From Trueperaceae bacterium (GTDB taxonomy: Bacteria; Deinococcota; Deinococci; Deinococcales; Trueperaceae), in the NCBI GenBank assembly GCA_002707365.1, contig PAMQ01000007.1:114341-178340 (forward strand): DNA of 64,000 nt, in the 5' to 3' direction. Made by a program: the position numbers and the translations under genes. This document shows positions 50,187-64,000 of this stretch, one piece after another (positions within the stretch are counted from its first letter, which is position 1; the number at the start of each line of letters is the position of its first letter). The notes beneath the pieces were generated by a model. It did not search any database. It was not told the DNA's origin and saw only the letters and a list, made by a program, of their open reading frames with translations.

Positions 50187-51578
50187 TCAGGCGTTCATCC
50201 CAACCGGTAACTTGCTTGCCGTTAACTCCAAAATTGGGCTAACAATCGCTGCTTTTTCTAGATCGGAGCACATTTCGAACAATGCGTTCCCTTGATCGAG
50301 AGGCAAGATATCTTGTGTTAAGGCAGCAAATTTAGTGCGGAGTTCGTCTTCAGTCATTCGGAATTCTGGCTCGCCTTTAGCGAACGGTACGCTACCTTCC
50401 AATTGTCGGCCATTACGAAGGTAGACTTCGACCGAAGCGCCATTACCGTCAGGATATTTACTTTCAATCTCTGGGTGAACCTCAATGTCAACAAGCTGAC
50501 GTAATCGACGTACATCTGGGTCATCCCAGTGAACTAAATCTGCTGGCCACGTACTTCCCCTTGTTAGTGCGACAGCGGTAGCTACCCTTATACTTAAACC
50601 TGCTACCTCACGTGAACCTGGGTTAGGATCAACGCGAAACGAGGGTTGGAGAGCATAACGGTATGTGCGGACCAAAACCCGGTCAATATCGGAAGGATCT
50701 AGCTCTTCTGTCGCAAGGATGTTTTGTACAGCATCCACAGCTTGGTGAGTGTGACGGCATCCACCGTGTGGCTTAAAAGCAGTGGAAACAATAGAAAAGC
50801 TACTGCCAAGATCATCGAATAATTCGGTGCCACTACCATCACCAAATGCCCTTAGGAAACCATATTCCCCATCAATAGCTCCATCGGGTCCAAAGAATCC
50901 AGCTTGTGCGAGTTGGACAGCGAACACGCCATTACGGGCCGCAAAGCCAGATATCAGATCCTTAGTATCACAATTACCAGACTCATATACGTATTGTTCA
51001 GTTCCCGAAGCCATATCGGCTGCTATGCCTACCGCATTAGCAAGGGTTTCTCCCTCCAACCCTGCACACCTACCAGCTGCCAAAGCAGCAGCAATCGGTC
51101 CAAGGGTACCTTTCAAATCAAGGCCACGGCTGCGCTGCTCTTTTCGAACAGCCATTCCGAGTCGAACAGCTAAATCATAGGCCGCAACGATGGCTTCTAT
51201 CACGGTACGACCTGGGGTCCTGTATACTTCAGCTGTAGCTAGAACAGCAGGAATCACTTCAGCAGCTATGTGGCCGGCACCTCGATGGGAATCGTCCATT
51301 CCTAGTACCTTTATCATTGTTCCGTTTGCGAAAGCAGCTCCTTCTGTTGTTGAGCGACTTCCATTACCTAATACCGTGGCTTGGTCACCTGGCATCATAG
51401 CGTTAACGTAAGCGAATGCCTTACGACCACGTTCTGTCTGGTATCCACCTAGTCCAGTGCCAATAGAATCGAATACGAGCCATTTCGCAATGCGAATGGC
51501 TTCCTCACTGATCTCCTCATACCTTAGTCCAAGCGCATAATCGACCAGTCGATGAACTAAAGTTCCGCTTGCCGCCAT
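50187..51578 (-). CDS. MmgE/PrpD family protein
   Basis: A 463-residue two-domain protein of the family that contains 2-methylcitrate dehydratase, cis-aconitate decarboxylase and iminodisuccinate epimerase. Typical: DSIGTGLGGYQTERG, the GMDDSHRGAGHIAAEVIPAVLA segment, STAFKPHGGCRHTHQAVDA and the C-terminal lid KYPDGNGASVEVYLRNG. ATG 51578 is chosen because GGGAGG is 6 nt upstream. It is the last gene of the peptide-catabolic cluster, 42 nt after the DegT gene. With aminotransferases and acylases nearby, an amino-dicarboxylate substrate is plausible, but this is inference. Confidence 0.9.
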   Translation of the reverse strand: MAASGTLVHRLVDYALGLRYEEISEEAIRIAKWLVFDSIGTGLGGYQTERGRKAFAYVNAMMPGDQATVLGNGSRSTTEGAAFANGTMIKVLGMDDSHRGAGHIAAEVIPAVLATAEVYRTPGRTVIEAIVAAYDLAVRLGMAVRKEQRSRGLDLKGTLGPIAAALAAGRCAGLEGETLANAVGIAADMASGTEQYVYESGNCDTKDLISGFAARNGVFAVQLAQAGFFGPDGAIDGEYGFLRAFGDGSGTELFDDLGSSFSIVSTAFKPHGGCRHTHQAVDAVQNILATEELDPSDIDRVLVRTYRYALQPSFRVDPNPGSREVAGLSIRVATAVALTRGSTWPADLVHWDDPDVRRLRQLVDIEVHPEIESKYPDGNGASVEVYLRNGRQLEGSVPFAKGEPEFRMTEDELRTKFAALTQDILPLDQGNALFEMCSDLEKAAIVSPILELTASKLPVGMNA

Positions 51579-51620
51579 GTATTGCCTCCCTATCAACTTG
51601 TTTCTTAAAGTCTACTGCAC

Positions 51621-52787
51621 CTATTGGGCATTGCCGCCTATAAGTGGCCGTAATGCATCTATCGCAAACCTGACATCATCATCAGTCAACTCGACCGTTA
51701 CCGGCAGAGAAAGAAGTTCTCTAGATAACTTTTCCGTTATTGGTAAGGACTGTGACCCCTTTAAGCCTTCATCGTACACGGTGTAATGATGAACAGGAGG
51801 AGTGTAATGTAATACTGCTTCCACTCCAACCCGTCTAAGGGCATCGTGAGTAAACTTTTGATTGGGGACCCTAATCGTGTAAGAACGGAACGTAGGGTTT
51901 GATTCTGAACGGAAATCCGGAAGAATTGCGTTAGTATCAGCAAGACCTTGCTTATATGCCTCCGCAATCTCACGACGCCTCTGAGTCCAACCTGCTAAAT
52001 GCGGTAACTTGATCCGGACAAGAGCAGCCTGCAACGGATCAAGAGGTACATTGTAGCCCTCCTCAAGATAATTCTGGCTACCCGGATCTTCACTTGGAGT
52101 TGGATCATGTCCATATCCAGTTAGTAACTCTAGCCGTTCCGCTATACCCGGATCGTCACAAACTATTATCCCGCCACTACCGACACTTCCCAATGGCTTC
52201 ATCGGGGCAAAGCTAAACACAGCAGCGTCAGCAAAAGCACCTATAGGCCGGTTGTGATCCTCAGCGCCCGTTGCCAGTGCAGCATCTTCTACAATGGCTA
52301 AGCCGTGGCGCTGGGCTACCCCGGAAAGAGCCTTGGCATCAGCTGGGTGTCCGTGAAGGTCGACTGGAAGAATTGCTTTCGTACGATCTGTAATCAGAGG
52401 TTCAACCAAGCTAGGATCTATAGTGTAATCAGCAGCTATAACGTCACACAAAACTGGTACAGCCCCACAGAGAGAAATCGCTCCCGTCGTGGAAATATCG
52501 GAGTTAGCCACGGTAATAACTTCATCTCCCGGACCGACACCACAGGCTCGTAGTGCAATTACCAATCCGATCGTACCTGAGTGGACTGAAATAGCATAAG
52601 CCCGACCCGCAAGCTTTGCAAAAGAACGTTCCAGTTCTAATCGTATATCTCGACCTTCGCCTCCTACCGGACCAAAGAGTAGTGGCTCAAGGGCGGATCG
52701 TATCTCGTCTTGCAAAATTTGATGCGTTTCATGAACACGAGATCGGGGGACCTTAAACCCTGTAGGGTATTTTTCGGTCGGGTGCAT
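51621..52787 (-). CDS. DegT/DnrJ/EryC1/StrS family PLP protein
   Basis: Fold-type I PLP enzyme usually transaminating keto-sugars. PLP-lysine Lys197 in FSFAPMKPLGSVGSGG and the PLP-binding Asp in IVEDAALATGA are present; the Gln normally following this Asp (EDAAQ) is Leu here. Length 388 is normal. AAGGAGGG precedes ATG 52787 by 8 nt. Gene spacing places it in the peptide-catabolic operon rather than in a cell-surface sugar cluster, so its substrate may not be a nucleotide sugar. Confidence 0.9.
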   Translation of the reverse strand: MHPTEKYPTGFKVPRSRVHETHQILQDEIRSALEPLLFGPVGGEGRDIRLELERSFAKLAGRAYAISVHSGTIGLVIALRACGVGPGDEVITVANSDISTTGAISLCGAVPVLCDVIAADYTIDPSLVEPLITDRTKAILPVDLHGHPADAKALSGVAQRHGLAIVEDAALATGAEDHNRPIGAFADAAVFSFAPMKPLGSVGSGGIIVCDDPGIAERLELLTGYGHDPTPSEDPGSQNYLEEGYNVPLDPLQAALVRIKLPHLAGWTQRRREIAEAYKQGLADTNAILPDFRSESNPTFRSYTIRVPNQKFTHDALRRVGVEAVLHYTPPVHHYTVYDEGLKGSQSLPITEKLSRELLSLPVTVELTDDDVRFAIDALRPLIGGNAQ

Positions 52788-52827: not shown

Positions 52828-53982
52828 TTATTTGTCGAGACGAATGTAGTATCTGCTCGCGTTGTGAGGCGAGAGCCTAACCGCACCTTCAGGAGTCACT
52901 AGGAAATTGTCGGATATTAGGAAACCTCGATCGTTTTCCAGAACAGTTCCAGGGTGGAACGACAAGACCATATTACTTTTCAACTCGAAATCGGGTGCCC
53001 CTAGGGAATTAGGCCCATCACTACCATCAAGCCCAGTACTGTGACAATCAGGAGTATGTTTACCTGCAACGGGAAAACCAAGTCCTCGGAGTGTGTCGTC
53101 ATTGGCTGCCGATACATCTGCAAAAGTGTTTCCTGTCCGCGCGGCGGAGGAAGAAGCCTCGACCGCTCTTAAATAACCCTGTAAGAGGCTATCGATTTCG
53201 TCAGGAAGCTCGTTAAAGGAAAACACGGTCGTCATTTCGAGCCAATATCCCCAGGGAGACTCGTACACTATTTCAAAATTGATGATGTCGTCTACGCCCA
53301 TTCTATGGTTCTTGTCGGTAGGAACCGTATAAGGGGTAATGTCTAGAGACAGTTTTGTCCGTCCCCAGAAAGCACCGTGTGACTTCACGTAAGCTTCGGT
53401 TGCAGCGCAAACATCCCAATAGCGCGCACCAACGTATGCAGAATCCCTAAACACATCTAAACAACCATCGAGAATAGCTCCGTTCTGCTGTAAGGCTTCC
53501 AACTCAAATGGCGTCTTAATCTGCCTAATAGTGTTATAGGCGTCAGTAACCTCGACTACCTCGTAACCGTTAAGTGCCGCCATGAACTTGGCGTGCTCAC
53601 CAACGCTCAGTAATTTATTCATATTTACCATCCCGATGCGCCGGCTCTTTTCTGCGTAATTGCGGGCAAGGTTGGTAGTTTCACCGACTATGTCACCTGG
53701 TGAAATCACGCGATCCTTCTGGGTGGTAGTTTCATTTCGACTCCAAACTCCCTGATAACTACTCCACACCAAGAGCCACGGGTCAGGATCTTCAGAACCT
53801 AATACTCCGTACGCTGCGCCACCCCAGAGGTGTACGTTTGTAATGTAACGGAGTGCACCGAGACCGCCAGGGGCCCCACCCCCAACAATAATTATCGCTC
53901 CTAGATCTTTTTCTGCCATCATGGCCTGTATCCTATTGATACGTTGAGAAACGTCGCGTGTTAAAGCATCGTGAGTTAGCAT
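52828..53982 (-). CDS. M24-fold (creatinase/aminopeptidase P-like) hydrolase with altered metal ligands
   Basis: Pita-bread-fold protein of 384 residues with N-terminal creatinase-like domain (about 15-150) and C-terminal M24 domain. The five canonical metal ligands Asp-Asp-His-Glu-Glu read here as Glu237, Glu249, His314, His343 (SFHPG instead of EPG) and Ser357 (ISDN instead of IED). It is therefore unlikely to be a dinuclear metallopeptidase; creatinase itself is a metal-free member of the fold. It may cleave an amide or amidine C-N bond. AAGGG precedes ATG 53982. It follows the two aspartoacylase-family genes in the operon. Confidence 0.85.
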   Translation of the reverse strand: MLTHDALTRDVSQRINRIQAMMAEKDLGAIIIVGGGAPGGLGALRYITNVHLWGGAAYGVLGSEDPDPWLLVWSSYQGVWSRNETTTQKDRVISPGDIVGETTNLARNYAEKSRRIGMVNMNKLLSVGEHAKFMAALNGYEVVEVTDAYNTIRQIKTPFELEALQQNGAILDGCLDVFRDSAYVGARYWDVCAATEAYVKSHGAFWGRTKLSLDITPYTVPTDKNHRMGVDDIINFEIVYESPWGYWLEMTTVFSFNELPDEIDSLLQGYLRAVEASSSAARTGNTFADVSAANDDTLRGLGFPVAGKHTPDCHSTGLDGSDGPNSLGAPDFELKSNMVLSFHPGTVLENDRGFLISDNFLVTPEGAVRLSPHNASRYYIRLDK

Positions 53983-54040: not shown

Positions 54041-55006
54041 CTAAGTTACAGGGTCACCTAGTATCGCTAGAGTGACTCCTTCCGGCAACAACGGCCAGGA
54101 CGCGCCTGCATGCAGCATTACGCCATCCCTAGGAGCCCGGATCTCCTCTAGTGTTTCTCCCGTATAGGGGTGCAGTACGTAACCAATCTGCTCGCCGGCT
54201 GCCACCGATTCACCACGCTTTTCGGAATCCATAAATGTGAACCCGCGCTCGCCGTTAGGTTTAATAAAGGTGTGACCATCTATGATTTTTACAGGCCCTT
54301 CTGACTCGAGTTCTCCTTCAATCATCCCGAGGTGTCGGAGGCCATTTAAGACTGCATTTCGGGTGCGCCTCATGTCGTCATCACGGTAGTCACGTAAACC
54401 TGGTCCACCACCAATCCAGGTAGAACACACTGCCTTACCGTCCTGAGCTGCCTCAAACGAACTAGAAGCATCATCGGGTTGACCTAGAAGCACCTGTGGC
54501 AAACCAAGTGAAATAGCAAGATCGGTGGAAGCTTGTATGGCGCCAGTCCGATAAATCCCGGCATAGCGGAAGTAGCCCCACTGAGCACCAGTTCGTATAT
54601 CGATCACTGCATCAGCTTGGGATATAACTTCGTTGTAATAGCGGTAAATCAACTGCTCACTTACGGTTCCATCAGCGTTACCCCGCCCCAGAGCGTTAAG
54701 ATCCTTATCGTCCCAAATCGCATTGACTTGTTCAAATTCGAAACCAGAGGTGTTGAGTAACGGAACGACGATTAGCGTTCCAGTGATTTTGGCTGGATCC
54801 AGTTCAGCTACCAAACCAGGTAGTGTCAATGATGGCTCGACCTCAAGTCCACTAAGTCCCGCTTGCACCAGTAACACTGGGCCCTCAGACTGACCCTGAA
54901 TTATGTGAATAGGAACATGTACCGGAAACCGCGCGTGAGTCTTTCCAACTTCGAACTTACCGAAAACCTTCTCCCCTGGTTGAGCCTGGATATCCCCAAT
55001 TTTCAT
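54041..55006 (-). CDS. Aspartoacylase/succinylglutamate desuccinylase family, apparent pseudoenzyme
   Basis: A 321-residue paralogue of the upstream neighbour, collinear with it over its whole length. The zinc and catalytic residues of the active copy are replaced: His52 to Ser (GLSGLEVE), His138 to Arg (DIRTGAQ) and catalytic Glu to Trp in STWIGGG; only Glu55 is kept. The fold and C-terminal barrel domain (GEQIGYVLHPYTGETLEEIRAPRDG) remain intact and the frame is open, so it is a maintained protein, perhaps a regulatory or structural partner. ATG 55006 follows a perfect AAGGAGG and the stop of the active gene by one base. Confidence 0.85.
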   Translation of the reverse strand: MKIGDIQAQPGEKVFGKFEVGKTHARFPVHVPIHIIQGQSEGPVLLVQAGLSGLEVEPSLTLPGLVAELDPAKITGTLIVVPLLNTSGFEFEQVNAIWDDKDLNALGRGNADGTVSEQLIYRYYNEVISQADAVIDIRTGAQWGYFRYAGIYRTGAIQASTDLAISLGLPQVLLGQPDDASSSFEAAQDGKAVCSTWIGGGPGLRDYRDDDMRRTRNAVLNGLRHLGMIEGELESEGPVKIIDGHTFIKPNGERGFTFMDSEKRGESVAAGEQIGYVLHPYTGETLEEIRAPRDGVMLHAGASWPLLPEGVTLAILGDPVT

Positions 55007-55007
55007 C

Positions 55008-56057
55008 TTATTCACCTCCTTGTTCGTCGAATGATACGTATACATCCATACTACGTCGATCCTCAACTCGATCTATCTCACCTAATATGCCAATAGAAGT
55101 CGCACCGATAGTGACCCACTCTTGACCACTCGGGATAACTATTGCATCCTCTGTATTGGGAATATTAGCTAGCAACTCGCCAGTATAGGGATCCACCAAA
55201 GTCGCATAAACTTCACCCTCAGAAACATGTTCGCCGAAACGCCGTTGGCGAACAAAAAGACCGTCGACATCAGGCTTCCATAGGACAACGTTGGCGTTAT
55301 AAACAGTGCATTCAGGGGTATCAGCTTCGAGTTCGCCATCAATCATCCTCATGGCTTTCATCGTGTTCCAGATTCCGCGTTCAGCATCAGCTACATTATC
55401 TGCACCGTTCTTAAACCAACCAGTGCCTCCGCCGAATTCCAAAGTGATTTGCAATACACCAGCATTCTCAATGGCATCCTTAGCTAAATTTGCACCAAAC
55501 GTATTTGGTGGAAAAAATGCTGCTTGATCGAGTCCGAATGCAACCACAAGCTTACGGCGTTTAGCCTCCATCGCAGTAAGGTTATTTGGATCTTTTTCAG
55601 CCCCGAAAAGGACATAACGCTCGTACGCGGTACGAGCTCCAGCGTGAAAATCAAGCATTACGTCTGCTTGACGTACAACCTCTTCAAAATAAACGTGAGC
55701 AATCTGGTCAGAAACGCTCCCATCAGATTTGCCCGGGAACAAGCGACTAATATCTTTGTTATCAACGCTTGAGCCTCGCTCGCCAAGCTCAAATCCAACA
55801 CGATTAACTACCGGCACGGCAAGAACGTTACCGCGTATCGACTTAGGATCAAGTTTCTTTATTATATTAAGAATCGCTATTGATCCAATGACTTCGGCAC
55901 CATGAATGGCCCCCTGCACTAATAGTGTGGGACCAGGTTCAGTGCCGGCAAAAAGGTGTACCGGTACGTCAGGTGCAAGACCAGATCGGGACCGTGGACC
56001 TTCCAAATACCCGAAAGTGTGCTCCCCCGGTTGAGCTTCCAAACTACCAACTCTCAT
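55008..56057 (-). CDS. Aspartoacylase/succinylglutamate desuccinylase family deacylase
   Basis: M14-like zinc amidohydrolase of 349 residues. Zinc ligands His52 and Glu55 in GAIHGAEV and His138 in MLDFHAGA; catalytic Glu207 in ITLEFGGG. A C-terminal beta domain (RFGEHVSEGEVYATLVDPYTGELL) follows. Members remove acyl groups from N-acyl amino acids such as acetyl-aspartate, succinyl-glutamate or acetyl-diaminobutyrate. The ribosome-binding site of the next gene is embedded in its last codons. Within this operon it probably deacylates an imported or partly processed substrate. Confidence 0.9.
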   Translation of the reverse strand: MRVGSLEAQPGEHTFGYLEGPRSRSGLAPDVPVHLFAGTEPGPTLLVQGAIHGAEVIGSIAILNIIKKLDPKSIRGNVLAVPVVNRVGFELGERGSSVDNKDISRLFPGKSDGSVSDQIAHVYFEEVVRQADVMLDFHAGARTAYERYVLFGAEKDPNNLTAMEAKRRKLVVAFGLDQAAFFPPNTFGANLAKDAIENAGVLQITLEFGGGTGWFKNGADNVADAERGIWNTMKAMRMIDGELEADTPECTVYNANVVLWKPDVDGLFVRQRRFGEHVSEGEVYATLVDPYTGELLANIPNTEDAIVIPSGQEWVTIGATSIGILGEIDRVEDRRSMDVYVSFDEQGGE

Positions 56058-56105: not shown

Positions 56106-58157
56106 TCACGATGGCTTAGTTCCTATATGACTCTCGAACCAACTCAAGATCCTGTGTAATCTTTCAACTCTATTTCCAGGCCTCCCGCCTCGGGAAAGCC
56201 CGTGGCTCTCTCCTTCGAACACTACTAGTTCTACCTCACGACCGAGCCAGCGCAGAGCGGCAAACAACTGTTCAGCCTGCTCAAGCGGACAACGATGATC
56301 CTGATCACTATGAATAATGAGCAAAGGAGTATGAATATCACCTACATAAGCAATGGGTGATTGTCGCCAAGATGACTCTAAATTTTCGATGGGGTTAACA
56401 CCAGTTTCTCCTTCTGTGCCCTCAGGACCAATATCAGACGTCCCTAAAAAACTGATCTGATTAGAAATAGACCTCTGAGTCACTGCAGCGGCGAACCTGT
56501 CGGTGTGCCCTACAATCCAGTTCGTCATAAAGCCGCCGCAACTACCGCCGGTCACGCCAAGACGATTTTCATCAACGAACGGTAGTGTCACGAGGTCATT
56601 CACCCCAAGCATAGTCTCGTCGTAATCACGACCACCCTGATCACCTTCACTTGCTCTGGTCCAGGCTTGACCATAACCAGCTGTTGTACCTCGTACATTA
56701 AATGCGTTAACTACAAACCCAGCTTCAGCGAGACATTGAAATTCATGGCTAAAGTCCCAAGAAAACATCGAACAATGCACGTACACGATAGCTGGATACT
56801 GCTTAGACTTATCAAACTTGGTTGGTAACCAAAGCCAACCTTGTATCTGATCCTTATCTAAACCTTCGAAATAACGCTCTTCGGGTAAGACTAATTTCCG
56901 GTCCTGTAACCAGGGATTTAACGCAGTAAGGCGCTTTGTCTCTTCCGAAGTCCATTCAAACAAGTCACCTGGATTTGTTGGATCTGCCCAACCATAGACT
57001 GCCGCATCCCCAGCCCTCGGGCTGTAGTCGAAAACGACTCCTTGGCCAGAAGCAATAGTCTCAAAAGTTCCTGTCGTGTTGATCCGACAAAAGTGGGTAG
57101 CCCCCTCTACGGTCAAAAGAAAATAAATCCAAGGGTCACCCGCAGGCCACTTGACTGTTATGTTGGATAGCGCTACCCGGGTGTCCGATGCAGCGTAGTT
57201 TCCGACCTCCTGGTCTAGAGCACCTAGTTCCACTGCAGTACCATGCTCCACGTCGGCAAGGTGAGGGGTTAGGAATACCCTGCGGTTAGTGGGAGCTGGG
57301 TGATTGTGCCCCGCAAACGCTATGCTACGGTCGTCATCACCCCATGCCGGACTACGACAAGCACCTTGCCAATTAACCAGTAGTCGGACTGGCGATCCTC
57401 CTGGATAATCACAAAGGAAAATTTGTCCCTGGCCAAGCGCTACGTTCTGTTCTCGAGCCGTACCAACAAATGCAAGGCGTTTCCCTGATTCACTCCAACT
57501 TGGCTCAGAGTAGTCACATTCGCTATCGGTGATTTGGGTTAGATTTCCACTAACCCTCTCCATAACCCAGATTTGAGAATAACGGTTGTGTACAAAACCA
57601 ACGCCATCCTGTTTATACCTAAGACGTCGAATTACCTTAATGGTTGGTGCCGGCAATCCAACCTCTATGTTGCGACTAGATTCATCGTGTATTGGTGTCC
57701 AGCGAACTCCAGCTAGGTGAGAGCCGTCATTATCAAACACTAACCCCGTCATAGGCTCCTTACCTACGTCGTGAATCTGCAGTTGGTTTACCTCGCTCGA
57801 CCAGATTTGAACAGAATGGCTATCACCCTTACTCCAGGAGAAGGCTAAACTCTTCCCGTCAGCACTCCAGGTAGGACTTGAAGCTGATCCCGTCCCACTG
57901 GTAATTAGGTTTCCCTCCTGCTGTTTAAGATCCCGCAAGTAGAGGTTTGTCTTATAACCATTTATCTGAAGGTCAATTTCACGAACTGTATAGGCTACAT
58001 AGGTGCCACTTGGATCAAGTGCGACCTCAACAAGCCATTTATACTTTGTTAGATCTTCAGGAATAAGGCCACGCTGGATCTCGAAATTACTCGCGGACCC
58101 AGATCCACTCTCGGCAATGCTTTTGCGTACCTCCGGTGACTGACTTGCCTGGCTCAA
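56106..58157 (-). CDS. S9 family serine peptidase (prolyl-oligopeptidase/acylaminoacyl-peptidase type)
   Basis: A 683-residue protein with an N-terminal beta-propeller (WD40-like TolB repeats such as SPTWSADGKSLAFSW and SEPSWSESGKRLAFVG, about 45-420) and an alpha/beta-hydrolase domain. Catalytic triad: Ser539 in GGSCGGF, Asp620 in HSDQDHRCP and His652 in GESHGLSRGG. No signal peptide, so cytoplasmic. It begins with TTG 58157, overlapping the stop of the Ldh2 gene as TTGA, with GGAG 8 nt before it. Likely hydrolyses short peptides or N-acyl-amino-acid peptides brought in by the transporter. Confidence 0.93.
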   Translation of the reverse strand: MSQASQSPEVRKSIAESGSGSASNFEIQRGLIPEDLTKYKWLVEVALDPSGTYVAYTVREIDLQINGYKTNLYLRDLKQQEGNLITSGTGSASSPTWSADGKSLAFSWSKGDSHSVQIWSSEVNQLQIHDVGKEPMTGLVFDNDGSHLAGVRWTPIHDESSRNIEVGLPAPTIKVIRRLRYKQDGVGFVHNRYSQIWVMERVSGNLTQITDSECDYSEPSWSESGKRLAFVGTAREQNVALGQGQIFLCDYPGGSPVRLLVNWQGACRSPAWGDDDRSIAFAGHNHPAPTNRRVFLTPHLADVEHGTAVELGALDQEVGNYAASDTRVALSNITVKWPAGDPWIYFLLTVEGATHFCRINTTGTFETIASGQGVVFDYSPRAGDAAVYGWADPTNPGDLFEWTSEETKRLTALNPWLQDRKLVLPEERYFEGLDKDQIQGWLWLPTKFDKSKQYPAIVYVHCSMFSWDFSHEFQCLAEAGFVVNAFNVRGTTAGYGQAWTRASEGDQGGRDYDETMLGVNDLVTLPFVDENRLGVTGGSCGGFMTNWIVGHTDRFAAAVTQRSISNQISFLGTSDIGPEGTEGETGVNPIENLESSWRQSPIAYVGDIHTPLLIIHSDQDHRCPLEQAEQLFAALRWLGREVELVVFEGESHGLSRGGRPGNRVERLHRILSWFESHIGTKPS

Positions 58158-59227
58158 CCGAGAGGCTCCAAACCAAGTTCCTGAGCGAGAGGCCGCAAAG
58201 ACTGGAGGGTTTCTTGGGACACAGGAATCCCCTCTTTGCGCCTTTGTTGCATGCGCTCGTCCTCTAGATCACCTGGAAGCAAGACGGGTGAAGAAGGGTC
58301 GATGGGGGGAGCGCTCTTGACCTCCGCAATAAGTTTAGTTAGGCGTGTTTCAAATTGTTCGCTAGTCATGAAAATGGTGGGATCAAACGCCATCATCATG
58401 TGACCAACATCATAGTGATTCTCGTCTTGGAAAACGTCTAACCCGAACTTCGCACCGGTCATCACACCAGTGAACACATCAGTAAAGAAACTCAAACCAT
58501 AACCCTTATACTCACCGATTGGGAGTACCGGCCCGTCCATAGCGGCTGCCGGATCCGTGGTTCTTTCTCCGTCAGGGGTAAGTGCCCACGTGTCGGGCAT
58601 AGCACGACCCTGCTCTAGATACCAACGCATCATTCCCTTGCCTGACATGGTAAGTGCCATATCAAGTAACACGGGTCCACGTTCTTTGCCTGGATAAGGG
58701 ACCGCTAGGCCCCAGGGATTAGTGGCGAGAACAGGCTTTGCTGAACCCCAAGGAGCCATTTCAGCACGAGCATTAGTCATCGACCAACCTATGAGACCCG
58801 CATTAGCTGCCGTCAGGGCATGATATCCAGCAATACCAAAATGGTTACTATTACGCACCCAAACTACCGCTAAACCGGTGGCCTTTGCCTTCTCTGAAGC
58901 GCGAAGCATTGCCCGTTGGGCAGCAACATAACCAAATCCCTTAGCGGCGTCTAAAAGAGCGTAACTAGGTCCATCTCGGTCCCAGGACATTGGGGCGTCT
59001 GCAATAATTCCACCATTACGAATCCTGTTGAAGTAACGGAGGAGCTTCTCTACCCCTTGACCTTGACCTGGGTGGTACCACAAGGATGCCGTAACTACGC
59101 CGTCAGCTACGATTTCTGCTTCTTCTGCTGTGGCCCCAAGCGTTGTAAGAAACGTTTCAATAAAACCCCTTAAGTCCTTTTCGGGGTAGAAAGTCACTGG
59201 TTCTTTGTCAGTTAAGTCGTATGCCAT
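58154..59227 (-). CDS. Ldh2 (malate/L-lactate dehydrogenase-like) family oxidoreductase
   Basis: NAD(P)H-dependent 2-hydroxy- or imino-acid oxidoreductase of the family including ureidoglycolate, sulfolactate and piperideine-2-carboxylate enzymes; 357 residues. VRNSNHFGIAGYHA, WGSAKPVLATNPWGLAVP and GEYKGYGLSFFTDV are conserved. The normally catalytic SHG near the N-terminus is replaced: the segment reads YHPGQGQGV, aligning Gln57 with the catalytic His; His52 is close by. A subfamily with a different mechanism or substrate is likely. GAAGGGA lies 5 nt before ATG 59227. Confidence 0.88.
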   Translation of the reverse strand: MAYDLTDKEPVTFYPEKDLRGFIETFLTTLGATAEEAEIVADGVVTASLWYHPGQGQGVEKLLRYFNRIRNGGIIADAPMSWDRDGPSYALLDAAKGFGYVAAQRAMLRASEKAKATGLAVVWVRNSNHFGIAGYHALTAANAGLIGWSMTNARAEMAPWGSAKPVLATNPWGLAVPYPGKERGPVLLDMALTMSGKGMMRWYLEQGRAMPDTWALTPDGERTTDPAAAMDGPVLPIGEYKGYGLSFFTDVFTGVMTGAKFGLDVFQDENHYDVGHMMMAFDPTIFMTSEQFETRLTKLIAEVKSAPPIDPSSPVLLPGDLEDERMQQRRKEGIPVSQETLQSLRPLAQELGLEPLG

Positions 59228-59259: not shown

Positions 59260-60420
59260 CTAACCTCCAACGCCTATTACGTCCATCGCCGCCTTCATGC
59301 GGCCAAGACCTTGAATTAGTTGCTCCTCAGGTTGTAAGAAAGTGATACGGAGGAAGTTGTCCATATCTTCAGAAAAAGCTCCACCCGGGTAAGCAAGTAC
59401 ATGTGCTTCGTCAAGAATCCGCTGCGCCAATTCTATGCTCCCCATACCAGTATGTTTAACATCCACAAAGACAAATTGCCCGCCCTGAGGAGTTCCGTAA
59501 GTGAACCCCATATCATCCAGGTAATCAAGGACAATCCGTCGTCGCTGCGAATAAGCTTCACGCATGGCATTAGCCTCGTCTTGAGGACCGGTCAGTGCCG
59601 CTAAAGCAGCATATTGGGAAACAAGAGACGCCGGCCCTGAAACAGCTGCCTTCAAGTCCCGAACGCGAGTCATTAGATCGGCTGGACCAGCAACCCAACC
59701 AGCCCGCCAACCCGTCATAGCATAGGTTTTCGAAAGCGCATTTAGCGTGAGAGTACGCTCTTTCCCTCCTGGCAGAGAAGCTGGGCTCGTATGCACAAAG
59801 TCGTCGTACAGAATCAAATCATAAATGTCGTCTGCAATGATGATTAGATCTTTCTCTTGTGCAATTTGTATTAGTTTTTGCTGATCTTCTCTAGAAATTA
59901 CACTTGCTGCAGGATTATTGGGAGAGACAAGCAGAAGAGCTCGGGTTTCGGGAGTAATTGTTTGTCTCACACGATCAGGATCGACCCGGAAAGCTTCTTC
60001 CGCATAGGTGGGCATACTTACAATCTGACCACGGGCAAAAGTAACAGAGTCCTTATATGTATTGTAGTTAGGTTCGGGTACCAGGAGACTGTCGCCCTCG
60101 CCAATGGCTGCGACAACCATAAGGAATAGTGCCTCCTGGCCTCCATTAGTAAATACGATTTCAGTGTTCGGATCAAAACTGGCTCCGTTGACCCGTTCAA
60201 CCCGTTCAGCAATGGCCTCACGCACGACAAGCAATCCTTCAGCTGGGGAAGGTTCGGTTAGTTTATTCTCCATTGCATCTTTAGCAGCTTTTACAATGTG
60301 CCCAGGGGTATCGAAATCAGGATCGCCCCGGCCCAAGACTATGGCATCGTCGTAACCACGTACTTGCGAAATGAGGTGATAAAGAACCTCAGTGCCTCGC
60401 TTTTTCTTCTGTTCACTCAT
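59260..60420 (-). CDS. PLP aminotransferase class I/II, intact copy
   Basis: A 386-residue aspartate-aminotransferase-fold enzyme with PLP-lysine Lys231 in NALSKTYAMTGWRAGW, SPNNPAASV with the PLP Asn, IADDIYDLILYDD with Asp/Tyr, and a C-terminal Arg in FLRITFLQ. Ribosome-binding site TAGGAG 7 nt before ATG 60420. It lies 73 nt downstream of a degenerate paralogue and upstream of the Ldh2 gene. Together with the reductase it could move an amino group off an imported amino acid and reduce the keto acid. Confidence 0.92.
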   Translation of the reverse strand: MSEQKKKRGTEVLYHLISQVRGYDDAIVLGRGDPDFDTPGHIVKAAKDAMENKLTEPSPAEGLLVVREAIAERVERVNGASFDPNTEIVFTNGGQEALFLMVVAAIGEGDSLLVPEPNYNTYKDSVTFARGQIVSMPTYAEEAFRVDPDRVRQTITPETRALLLVSPNNPAASVISREDQQKLIQIAQEKDLIIIADDIYDLILYDDFVHTSPASLPGGKERTLTLNALSKTYAMTGWRAGWVAGPADLMTRVRDLKAAVSGPASLVSQYAALAALTGPQDEANAMREAYSQRRRIVLDYLDDMGFTYGTPQGGQFVFVDVKHTGMGSIELAQRILDEAHVLAYPGGAFSEDMDNFLRITFLQPEEQLIQGLGRMKAAMDVIGVGG

Positions 60421-60493: not shown

Positions 60494-61555
60494 TTACTTG
60501 ACCCCTTCGGTTATCGAAAGTCGGAGAACATCAGGAGCTCCGAAACCAGCTCCATCTAATGGAGTCAATCCACGATCTCTAAGAGCACTAACAATGGCAT
60601 CCGTTCGGCTTACAGCCACCAGATTGGCTGTATTGCCAACAAGGATTTCAGCTCCAAAAGAGTTCAGCCACTCAAGCATACTTTCCTTATTTTGGCTTAG
60701 GCTTGCTGCAGCCTCACTCCGACGAACTCCGTAGCCGTCACTCGCTCCAAGGGCTGCGTACTGGGTGGCTGTGGAAGTACAGATCGAAATAATCTGTTTC
60801 ATGGCAGTGATTCCCGGTAAATGTTCCTCGTTAGTCGCTATATACCCGATCGAAAGGCCTTCAAGGCCAACTCCAGGAAAAGCTTCACCCAAGAAGGTTA
60901 TCCGCCCCAAACTATTTAAATCGTTATAAATATTAGGGTCTTGGAGCCAACCAGAAAGACCAGTATCAATCATTACTAGAGCACCGTGTTTATCAGCAAG
61001 GTCAGAAATTTGATCGACCTCATTACTGTCATAAACAGCACCAGTTAGGCGCCCTGGCGATTCAAGAAAAATTCTGTTGGCACCCGCAACTAAGGCGCTT
61101 TCGATGGCTTCAATCGTCGGAATTCGACGAAGATCATCTTCTACCTTAATCCACGTGTGTTTAGTGGATCTGATACCCAACGCCTTCCTAACGCCAGGAT
61201 GGACAATCGAAGGCACTGCCAGAACACTAGATTCCTCTGCTAAAACCTGAAGAGCAAGGAAGCGGGCTTCTTGAACCCCAGCAGTTACTAACACTCCTTC
61301 TGGGTTATACCCAGATGGTAGAGCGTCTGCTATGGCTTCACGAAGCGGCATGATTCCTGGAACATCCACGTAATGAGTCTGCCCCTCCTGTAGAGCATTA
61401 TTAGCTGTTGTAATAGCGTGTTCAGACAACTGGGATGTCGGCTGATCTCCTCGCAAATCATCTAGGTTATTGCCGAAAGAAGCCACATCAGATACCCCTA
61501 AAAGTTCGTTAGCCTGATGGGCGGTCATTAATTGGTCTTTTTTACTCTGCTCCAT
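60494..61555 (-). CDS. Aminotransferase-fold protein lacking the PLP lysine
   Basis: A 353-residue protein recognisable as a class I/II aminotransferase (THYVDVPGIMPLREAIADALP, VLVTAGVQEARFLALQVL, FLESPGRLTGAVYD, MIDTGLSGW, VLRLSIT). At the cofactor-lysine position the SxSK motif has become TFLGEAF, with Glu224 replacing Lys, and the Arg in GWRxG is replaced (LEGLSIGY). The NPxNPTG Asn is also lost. It cannot form the normal PLP aldimine. The frame is intact and the Asp of MIDTG is kept, so it may bind a ligand or pair with the adjacent intact copy. ATG 61555 is 3 nt after GGAGG. Confidence 0.8.
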   Translation of the reverse strand: MEQSKKDQLMTAHQANELLGVSDVASFGNNLDDLRGDQPTSQLSEHAITTANNALQEGQTHYVDVPGIMPLREAIADALPSGYNPEGVLVTAGVQEARFLALQVLAEESSVLAVPSIVHPGVRKALGIRSTKHTWIKVEDDLRRIPTIEAIESALVAGANRIFLESPGRLTGAVYDSNEVDQISDLADKHGALVMIDTGLSGWLQDPNIYNDLNSLGRITFLGEAFPGVGLEGLSIGYIATNEEHLPGITAMKQIISICTSTATQYAALGASDGYGVRRSEAAASLSQNKESMLEWLNSFGAEILVGNTANLVAVSRTDAIVSALRDRGLTPLDGAGFGAPDVLRLSITEGVK

Positions 61556-61647
61556 ATTCCTCCAAAAATGTCTCATAGAAATATATTCTCACTATTGCAA
61601 GCCTGATCAATTCTTAATTTAGGTAACCCGCTTTATCCCTCCTACAC

Positions 61648-62577
61648 TTATTGACCCCGCAATCGCGGATCAAGTAGATCGCGAAGCCAATCTCCTAAAA
61701 ACACCACTCCTAATACAGTTATGGTTATAGCTATACCTGGAAATGTTGACATCCACCAGGCACTACCAATGACTTGTCTCCCATCTGACAACATAAGGCC
61801 CCATGTGACAGTAGGCGCCTGAACACCAAGACCCAGAAAACTTAGTGACGCTTCAGCAAGCATGGTAGTGGCAACCATCATGGTTGCTAAGACGATGATG
61901 GATCCAGTCACGTTAGGGAGAATATGCTTAAACATAATCTTGAAACTAGACTGTCCAAGAGCACGGGCTGCCATGACGTAATCAACCTCACGGACCGATA
62001 GTACTTCTGCCCGGGTCACTCGAGCGTAGGTAACCCAGCTAGTCACTCCGAGGATAAAAATAAGAGTCATGAGGCCAGCACCAACCACCCCCGATACGGC
62101 CACCACAAGCACAATGAACGGTATAGCTAAGAAGGCATCAGCGATACGCATCATAAAGTTGTCGATAAGGCCCCCTGAGAATCCAGAAACCAGGCCGTAC
62201 GATACGCCAATCAAGCCGGCTATCACGACTGCAAGAACCCCAACAGTTACAGAAACCCTGGTCCCTGCGATAACTCGGCTCAAAATGTCACGCCCGAGTT
62301 GGTCACTACCTAAATAATAGATTCCAGTTGCGTCCTGGTGTCCTGGCGGCTTGAAACGAGAACGCAAATTGTGCTCTAAGGGGTCATGAGGGGAAATTAG
62401 TGGACCAAACAGGGCAACTAGAACAACGCCAACAACTAATACGGCACCAATAGTACCCACCCGACTACGACGAAGAGAACGAAAAGCATACCAAAATCGG
62501 GTGCGCCTAACGGCAAGTACTTCTCCTGAAGAGACGCTGTCTGCTAATGATGTTTCAGAAGAAATTTGGGAACTCAT
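61648..62577 (-). CDS. ABC transporter permease, DppC/OppC type
   Basis: Inner-membrane permease of a dipeptide/oligopeptide ABC importer. 309 residues with an N-terminal cytoplasmic region, one helix (about 42-62), the typical periplasmic segment LGSDQLGRDILSRVIAGTRVS, and five more helices. The EAA loop reads MAARALGQSSFKIMFKHILPNV. Starts 7 nt after the DppB-type gene. ATPase genes are not in the window. Confidence 0.93.
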   Translation of the reverse strand: MSSQISSETSLADSVSSGEVLAVRRTRFWYAFRSLRRSRVGTIGAVLVVGVVLVALFGPLISPHDPLEHNLRSRFKPPGHQDATGIYYLGSDQLGRDILSRVIAGTRVSVTVGVLAVVIAGLIGVSYGLVSGFSGGLIDNFMMRIADAFLAIPFIVLVVAVSGVVGAGLMTLIFILGVTSWVTYARVTRAEVLSVREVDYVMAARALGQSSFKIMFKHILPNVTGSIIVLATMMVATTMLAEASLSFLGLGVQAPTVTWGLMLSDGRQVIGSAWWMSTFPGIAITITVLGVVFLGDWLRDLLDPRLRGQ

Positions 62578-62584
62578 CTCGGCA

Positions 62585-63514
62585 TCATCCCTGATTTCCT
62601 TGGAGCTCTATTCTAGGATCAATAAAGCTATAAATCACGTCCAAAACTAAATTAATAATAATAAAAGAGAGGGCGAACCAAAAAAGAGCCGCCTGCACTA
62701 CCGTTATGTCTCGCACGCCGATAGACTCAATCATTAGCCGACCAATGCCTGGCCATGAGAAAACAGCCTCCACTACCACCGATCCCCCTAAAAGCCAACC
62801 AAGTTGCAACCCAAGTGCAGTAACAACAGGCAGCAACGAATTTCTTAAAGCGTGCCGAATAATTACAACTCTGCCAGCAAGTCCCTTAGCGTATGCTGTC
62901 CTAACATAGTCCTGACTCAATACCTCGAGCATGGCTGATCGTGTAAGCCGTGAGAGTCTAGCAGCAATACCTGTTCCCAGAGTCAGTGCCGGCATAATAA
63001 TTGCACTAGCTTCAAGAGCCCCAAACGCTGGTAATAAACGGAGATTGACGGAAAAAATAAGTATTAGCATTAACCCCACCCAAAAGTTCGGCATGGCAGT
63101 CCCAAGGGTCGCCCCCATTGTGGCCACAATGTCCAACCAGGTGTTTCTCCTAAGTGCTGAAATAACACCAAGGGGAATCGCAATCAAGATGCCGATGACA
63201 GCTGACACTCCTGCCAAAAGATAGGTGTTTAGAAGCCTTTCGAGGACAAGTTCCATTGCCGGTATGCGAGCTTGCATTGATAACCCAAAATCTCCAGTTA
63301 TCGCTTTTCTAACAAAAACCAAATATTGTTCCACTAAAGGCCTGTCAAATCCCCAGGCGGCACGTAATGCCGCAATCTGATCTTCGCTAAAAGTGGGTGG
63401 CGCCATAACCGAAATTGGGTCGCCCTTAAGGCGAACCATGAAAAAAACTATCAGCGAGACGATAAATATCGTCATTAAAAGCTGACCCAGACGAGAAACA
63501 ATAAAAGTCTGCAA
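62585..63514 (-). CDS. ABC transporter permease, DppB/OppB type
   Basis: Partner permease, 309 residues, six helices. The N-terminal FIVSRLGQLLMTIFIVSLIVFFMVRLKGDP and the EAA loop TAYAKGLAGRVVIIRHALRNSLLP are diagnostic. The only in-frame start is TTG 63514 because a TAG lies six codons upstream; no ribosome-binding site is visible and a strong hairpin sits 25 nt upstream, so initiation is probably weak relative to the binding protein. Confidence 0.92.
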   Translation of the reverse strand: MQTFIVSRLGQLLMTIFIVSLIVFFMVRLKGDPISVMAPPTFSEDQIAALRAAWGFDRPLVEQYLVFVRKAITGDFGLSMQARIPAMELVLERLLNTYLLAGVSAVIGILIAIPLGVISALRRNTWLDIVATMGATLGTAMPNFWVGLMLILIFSVNLRLLPAFGALEASAIIMPALTLGTGIAARLSRLTRSAMLEVLSQDYVRTAYAKGLAGRVVIIRHALRNSLLPVVTALGLQLGWLLGGSVVVEAVFSWPGIGRLMIESIGVRDITVVQAALFWFALSFIIINLVLDVIYSFIDPRIELQGNQG

Positions 63515-63538
63515 CGAATCAGTATTCTGGTGCTAGTG

Positions 63539-63578
63539 CGCGTTGGTAATCAACTCTTGAGAGTTGATTACCAACGCG
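63539..63578 (-). other. 18-bp intercistronic hairpin between binding protein and permease genes
   Basis: A perfect inverted repeat of 18 bp (63539-63556 with 63561-63578) around a 4-nt loop. It lies 16 nt after the binding-protein stop and 24 nt before the permease start. No T-run follows on the minus strand. Such structures protect the 3' end of the binding-protein mRNA and lower permease expression. Confidence 0.75.
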
Positions 63579-63594
63579 GCTCAGCAGCCCGTTC

Positions 63595-64000
63595 TTAATC
63601 TCTTAGTTTGAGATCCCGGAATGTAAACCAACCGTCAGCCCGGGGGGTCCAGTCAAATTCATTATTCATTGCGGTTACGCCAACAACTTCGTAGAGCGGA
63701 ACCGTCACAGCCTGTTCAATGAATATCTCTTGCCAGCGCTCCCATAGTGCGAGGCGCTCGTCTGCGTCAATCGTAGTCAGGATCTGTTTACCTACAGAGT
63801 CCCACTCTTCAACACAAACGTTATAGTTTGCCTGTTGCCATTCGCATGTGTAAAACAAGGGAGTTAGGAACGGCGAGCCACCAAGCGCAACCATGTAGGC
63901 ATCACGGTTATTACCTGGTGATCCCACTTGCTCACGTAGCGCCGAAAGCCCGAGAATATTTAACTCAACCTCGAAACCAACATCCTCAAGCATAGCTTTG
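63595..64000 (-). CDS. Peptide/nickel-type ABC substrate-binding protein (SBP_bac_5), C-terminal part
   Basis: The last 134 or so residues of a family 5 extracellular solute-binding protein; the frame is open at the window edge, so the gene starts beyond 64000. Family features: AMLEDVGFEVEL, LGGSPFLTPLFYTCEWQQANYNVCVEEWD, LWERWQEIFIEQAVTVPLYEVVGVTAMNNEFDWTPRADGWFTFRDLKL. It belongs with the downstream DppB/DppC permeases. First visible gene of the cluster; ligand unknown. Confidence 0.9.
   Translation of the reverse strand, partial: KAMLEDVGFEVELNILGLSALREQVGSPGNNRDAYMVALGGSPFLTPLFYTCEWQQANYNVCVEEWDSVGKQILTTIDADERLALWERWQEIFIEQAVTVPLYEVVGVTAMNNEFDWTPRADGWFTFRDLKLRD

Follow-up and report, generated by a model that had tools for sequence, protein, structure and literature searches.

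A conserved tandem pair of AstE/AspA-family genes in Trueperaceae with a predicted pseudoenzyme as its second member

EutE/DoeB, the N-acetyl-L-2,4-diaminobutyrate deacetylase (PDB 6twl, 6twm), has the fold and catalytic-domain family of the two proteins described here, and no other named profile matches either of them better; it also ranks among their best solved relatives. EutE works beside EutD, a hydrolase of the M24 family, and neither can be dispensed with; this M24 protein and AspA-type deacetylase are interdependent, and no stable complex of the two was seen in vitro (PMC8739950). The cyanophycin dipeptide hydrolase CphZ and the succinylglutamate desuccinylase AstE are zinc amide-bond hydrolases of the same superfamily fold, more distant than EutE from the present proteins (Foldseek E values of about 5e-9 for CphZ and about 3e-7 for AstE). 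In the literature searched an inactive tandem twin was not found for EutE, unlike AspA, and the searches made found no inactive tandem partner of CphZ or AstE. No paper was found that combines 'pseudoenzyme' with 'aspartoacylase' or that concerns AstE in Trueperaceae, and no tandem enzyme/pseudoenzyme partnership within the AstE/AspA family was found in the open literature searched.

The DNA analysed here, referred to as the window, is a stretch of 64,000 nucleotides from a Trueperaceae (Deinococcota) genome. It contains two adjacent family members, here termed AspA and psAspA (Table 1). The earlier note on this DNA had described a collinear pair of genes one base apart, which sequence and translation confirmed (31% protein identity), and had assigned His52, Glu55, His138 and Glu207 to the upstream copy and Ser52, Glu55, Arg138 and a Trp in place of the catalytic Glu to the downstream copy, an assignment that was also borne out. 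The Trp is residue 197 in the numbering of psAspA and aligns with E207 of AspA. A further change, missing from that note, is the replacement of the DxNR-x-FPG family motif by KDLNALGRG in psAspA; the motif is lost from all six copies described below. The description of all key residues as replaced was too strong: it holds for the first His and the catalytic Glu, but Glu55 remains, as does His138 in two of the six psAspA orthologues. The ribosome-binding site of psAspA in the window is strong.

Table 1. Features of the operon, with positions in the window. L034 to L037 are loci in related genomes (see text).
Feature	Position	Strand	Basis
MmgE/PrpD-family gene	50187..51596	-	PF03972/PF19305; kept in L034, L035, L037
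DegT-family aminotransferase	51621..52787	-	PF01041 296.3 bits; kept in L034-L037
M24 (creatinase/prolidase-like) protein, most metal ligands replaced	52828..53982	-	PF00557; prolidase alignment
psAspA, downstream copy, predicted pseudoenzyme	54041..55006	-	321 aa from ATG 55006; PF24827 55.2 bits
psAspA Trp197, codon TGG, replaces catalytic Glu	54416..54418	-	Trp in 6/6
psAspA Arg138, codon CGA, replaces third zinc ligand His	54593..54595	-	Arg 4/6, His 2/6
psAspA Glu55, codon GAG, second zinc ligand position, retained	54842..54844	-	Glu in 6/6
psAspA Ser52, codon AGT, replaces first zinc ligand His	54851..54853	-	Ser in 6/6
AAGGAGGTGA, ribosome-binding site of psAspA, within AspA 3' end	55012..55021	-	sequence
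AspA, upstream copy, intact zinc/catalytic set	55008..56057	-	349 aa; PF24827 85.5 bits; motifs invariant among orthologues
AspA Glu207	55437..55439	-	
AspA His138	55644..55646	-	
AspA Glu55	55893..55895	-	
AspA His52	55902..55904	-	
S9 peptidase	56106..58157	-	PF00326 164.9 bits; same neighbour in L034-L037
Ldh_2 malate/lactate dehydrogenase-type gene	58154..59227	-	PF02615 343 bits; kept in L034, L035
AT1, paired with psAT2; class I aminotransferase, PLP lysine present	59260..60420	-	PF00155 211.3 bits; lysine 5/5
psAT2, class I aminotransferase homologue without PLP lysine	60494..61576	-	PF00155 75.1 bits; lysine absent 5/5
Opp/Dpp-type importer: two permeases and binding-protein end	61648..63999	-	PF00528, OppC_N for 61648-62577; cluster homologues

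Both proteins match the AstE/AspA catalytic domain family PF24827 (cut-off 25 bits) and have its fold. The zinc ligands His-x-x-Glu ... His and the catalytic glutamate are present in AspA, whereas psAspA has Ser52 and Trp197 in all six copies and Arg at position 138 in four of six. From these residues psAspA is best described as a PF24827 homologue by fold that is predicted not to be a catalytic member. The closest solved relatives of both proteins include EutE/DoeB, 3na6 and 3cdx, and comparison of psAspA with 6twm (EutE) and 3cdx using Foldseek gave TM scores of about 0.72-0.76, so that psAspA as modeled retains the family fold. Identity with DoeB/EutE itself was ruled out by score, AspA reaching 113 and psAspA 71.6 bits with the equivalog TIGR02994, for which the cut-off is 402.7 bits. 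The AlphaFold2 models of the two chains had mean pLDDT values of 73.4 and 76.5, with low confidence in much the same active-site loops of both. Because AspA, the active copy, is just as uncertain there as psAspA, model confidence was dropped as a sign of a missing partner. The HxxE motif is retained by nearly all of the approximately 52 other family members recovered, with two clear exceptions. One (L017 1492-2688, genome G148) has SDGNE instead of HGxE and its remaining motifs look intact. The other (L033/L074 7927-9677, genome G146) is the second gene of an unrelated tandem AspA pair, with GLRGDE (His to Arg), possibly an independent case of an altered second copy.

A species scan of GTDB r220, with one genome per species and exact peptide patterns from one protein, gave four loci: L034 (Truepera sp. 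bin119), L035 (Trueperaceae bin86), and L036 and L037 in two MAGs titled Armatimonadetes/Armatimonadota. Each carries AspA and psAspA in the order found in the window. A second, paralogous pair is located on contig C33 of G151, the genome of L036; it was not listed by the exact-peptide scan. Counting the window, the total is six pairs in five genomes; three of these genomes are Trueperaceae and the other two are filed under Armatimonadota. The gene directly after AspA is psAspA in all six pairs, with a gap of -4 to +41 bases, and psAspA is open and full length in all six copies, the proteins being 56-77% identical to that of the window. In a profile search covering some hundreds of genomes the pair was present in 3/111 Deinococcota genomes and in 2/43 genomes of the G151 phylum, and was not found in the 85 genomes searched of one further group or the 4 of another. 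All plasmid homologues were below 60% identity, the best among the matches listed being 32%. The sporadic distribution is suggestive of the complete operon having been passed from lineage to lineage. The earlier note had named absence or decay of the second copy in relatives as evidence against a selected pair; the pair is indeed absent from most of the Deinococcota genomes searched, but it travels with its operon, and none of the genomes searched showed a psAspA that was decayed or stood alone, so that the objection does not apply in the sense intended. One AspA of the same clade, at G151 C33:17081-18064 (region L071, 17081-18106), has no psAspA directly after it, and this contig also bears a complete AspA/psAspA pair. 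This case speaks against the partnership proposed below, in that one or more AspA proteins may do without psAspA.

The history of the pair was investigated with a tree of 65 family members, in which the six psAspA form one clade (100/100), the seven AspA form another (100/100), and the two clades are sisters (100/99), each with a stem of approximately 0.92 changes per site. The simplest account of this topology would be one old duplication with the pair inherited since, the residue loss being placed on the psAspA stem since the outgroups keep the motif. A recent local duplication was ruled out by the 31% identity and the long sister stems. Nei-Gojobori dN/dS values between L034 and L035 were 0.173 for psAspA and 0.111 for AspA. 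Where dS was measurable, values were mostly 0.11-0.31 across both genes, with the other psAspA pairs mostly at 0.15-0.31; the comparison of L036 with L071, both copies from one genome, gave 0.56 for psAspA and 0.53 for AspA. All comparisons with window sequences were unusable due to saturated synonymous sites. The values are well below 1, indicating purifying selection on psAspA close to that on AspA.

The conservation of individual residues in psAspA was also evaluated. Ser52 and Trp197 are fixed, and Glu55 is retained in all copies, so that the expectation of conserved replacements was upheld for two positions and only in part for the third, where L036 and L037 have His and the remaining four copies, from the three Trueperaceae and from the second pair of G151, have Arg. 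Since same-operon orthologues tolerate either Arg or His at position 138, metal binding there is dispensable, and it is unlikely that selection on psAspA acts to preserve a zinc site. The former active-site segments, defined from the family motifs, are invariant in 36/60 columns compared with 83/261 elsewhere (Fisher p 9e-5); in a circular-shift control 8/321 shifts equalled or exceeded this conservation, a moderate significance. Furthermore, 29 sites are constant within the AspA and psAspA clades yet different between them, 11 of which are in the former active-site segments. This pattern in the alignment argues that the old pocket of psAspA is rebuilt and maintained, with no drift.

The operon common to the five genomes contains psAT2, AT1, the dehydrogenase, the S9 peptidase, AspA, psAspA, the Opp/Dpp importer, the DegT-family aminotransferase and the M24 protein, with the MmgE/PrpD-family gene present where the contig reaches and the position of the importer varying between genomes. 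The gene for psAT2 lies directly before that for AT1 in 5/5 genomes, a second tandem pair of the operon. The M24 protein resembles prolidase more closely than it does EutD. Where prolidase has the ligands D, D, E and E it carries E, E, H and S, with the His kept, and it is conserved in the copies of five relatives. Metal-independent members of the M24 family exist, creatinase being one example, and for this reason the protein need not be inactive. A gene in the G151 clusters is predicted from sequence resemblance to be D-aminopeptidase-like. Taken together, the genes suggest an operon that takes up and degrades a peptide-like or N-acylated compound.

Six co-located pairs in two phyla, the old duplication, purifying selection and fixed replacements all uphold the proposal of the earlier note that the genes form a selected enzyme/pseudoenzyme pair. 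The predicted inactive copy is almost certainly used by the cell. On balance, and with modest confidence, we read psAspA from these sequence data as a selected pseudoenzyme kept as the partner of AspA, probably in a heteromer. AspA would be a working zinc amidohydrolase in an operon importing and degrading a peptide-like or N-acylated amino-acid compound, and psAspA an old AspA duplicate, retained as a pseudoenzyme after loss of its zinc site and catalytic glutamate. The two products of the adjacent, probably co-translated genes would pair in a hetero-oligomer in which the rebuilt psAspA active site may bind a ligand or touch AspA in a way that shapes or switches it. What we infer from the gene pair and its setting is the physical complex, the part psAspA plays in regulation or structure, and the substrate; a shared pathway also explains the conserved adjacency. 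A broader version, in which AspA/psAspA and AT1/psAT2 are two obligate enzyme/pseudoenzyme heteromers which together with an M24 protein devoid of the usual metal site possibly form one multi-enzyme assembly for a peptide-like nutrient, is speculative and rather unlikely.

Other roles for psAspA were weighed against the partnership with AspA. The strong conservation of the former active-site segments despite lost catalysis, and the 11 clade-differing constant sites within them, would be expected of a stand-alone binding protein or sensor, with a reshaped pocket that binds a substrate, product or cofactor and no AspA complex; however, psAspA is never apart from AspA in the six cases and no DNA-binding or other signalling domain was matched in a domain search, and we consider this role unlikely. 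The same conserved pocket, together with several polar residues that every psAspA has and AspA lacks, could instead belong to a true enzyme with new chemistry, for which new fixed residues such as Ser52, Arg108, His245 and His279 would form the active site. We know of no member of the AstE/AspA fold that works without zinc, a bulky Trp occupies the catalytic position, and position 138 switches between Arg and His among same-operon orthologues, all of which make new chemistry the more doubtful proposition.

That psAspA still works as a hydrolase, weakly dependent on zinc and with a non-standard site, is very improbable. Glu55 is present in all copies and His138 in 2/6, but 6/6 lack both the first ligand and the catalytic Glu, a single one of the three ligands is left in 4/6, and the DxNR motif is gone too. 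The loss of key residues and the sporadic occurrence of the pair in Deinococcota would also fit a decaying duplicate. That explanation is the most strongly disfavoured, and was rejected on the six intact orthologues and the dN/dS values, with which the fixed replacement residues and the strong ribosome-binding site in the window are in agreement.

It would be unusual for a single conserved bacterial operon to encode two enzyme/pseudoenzyme partnerships. New here is the occurrence of the AT1/psAT2 pair and a ligand-altered M24 protein in the same operon as AspA/psAspA, which itself offers natural multi-species material on why inactive paralogues persist beside enzymes. The results also serve as a warning that the psAspA gene should not be annotated as a deacylase.

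Tandem enzyme/pseudoenzyme partnerships are already known from a few families. The M16B proteins TTHA1264/TTHA1265 and SPH2681/SPH2682 and the mitochondrial MPP alpha/beta are heterodimers in which one of the chains carries the zinc motif (PMC12731061). They resemble AspA/psAspA in that the zinc subunit and its homologue are encoded by genes that are neighbours or form a pair, and the M16B pattern of adjacent homologous genes with the catalytic metal motif in one only, conserved pairwise, was found here for six pairs in five genomes. The fold and family are unrelated, and the heterodimer is known from structures in M16B and is proposed from genes here. In serine palmitoyltransferase, LCB1/LCB2, a lysine-bearing PLP subunit is joined by a homologous subunit without the lysine (PMC3794620). 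Although these belong to another PLP subfamily and their complex has been shown, whereas AT1/psAT2 are known from genes alone, the arrangement resembles that of AT1/psAT2, with one PLP subunit that has the lysine and a homologue without it.
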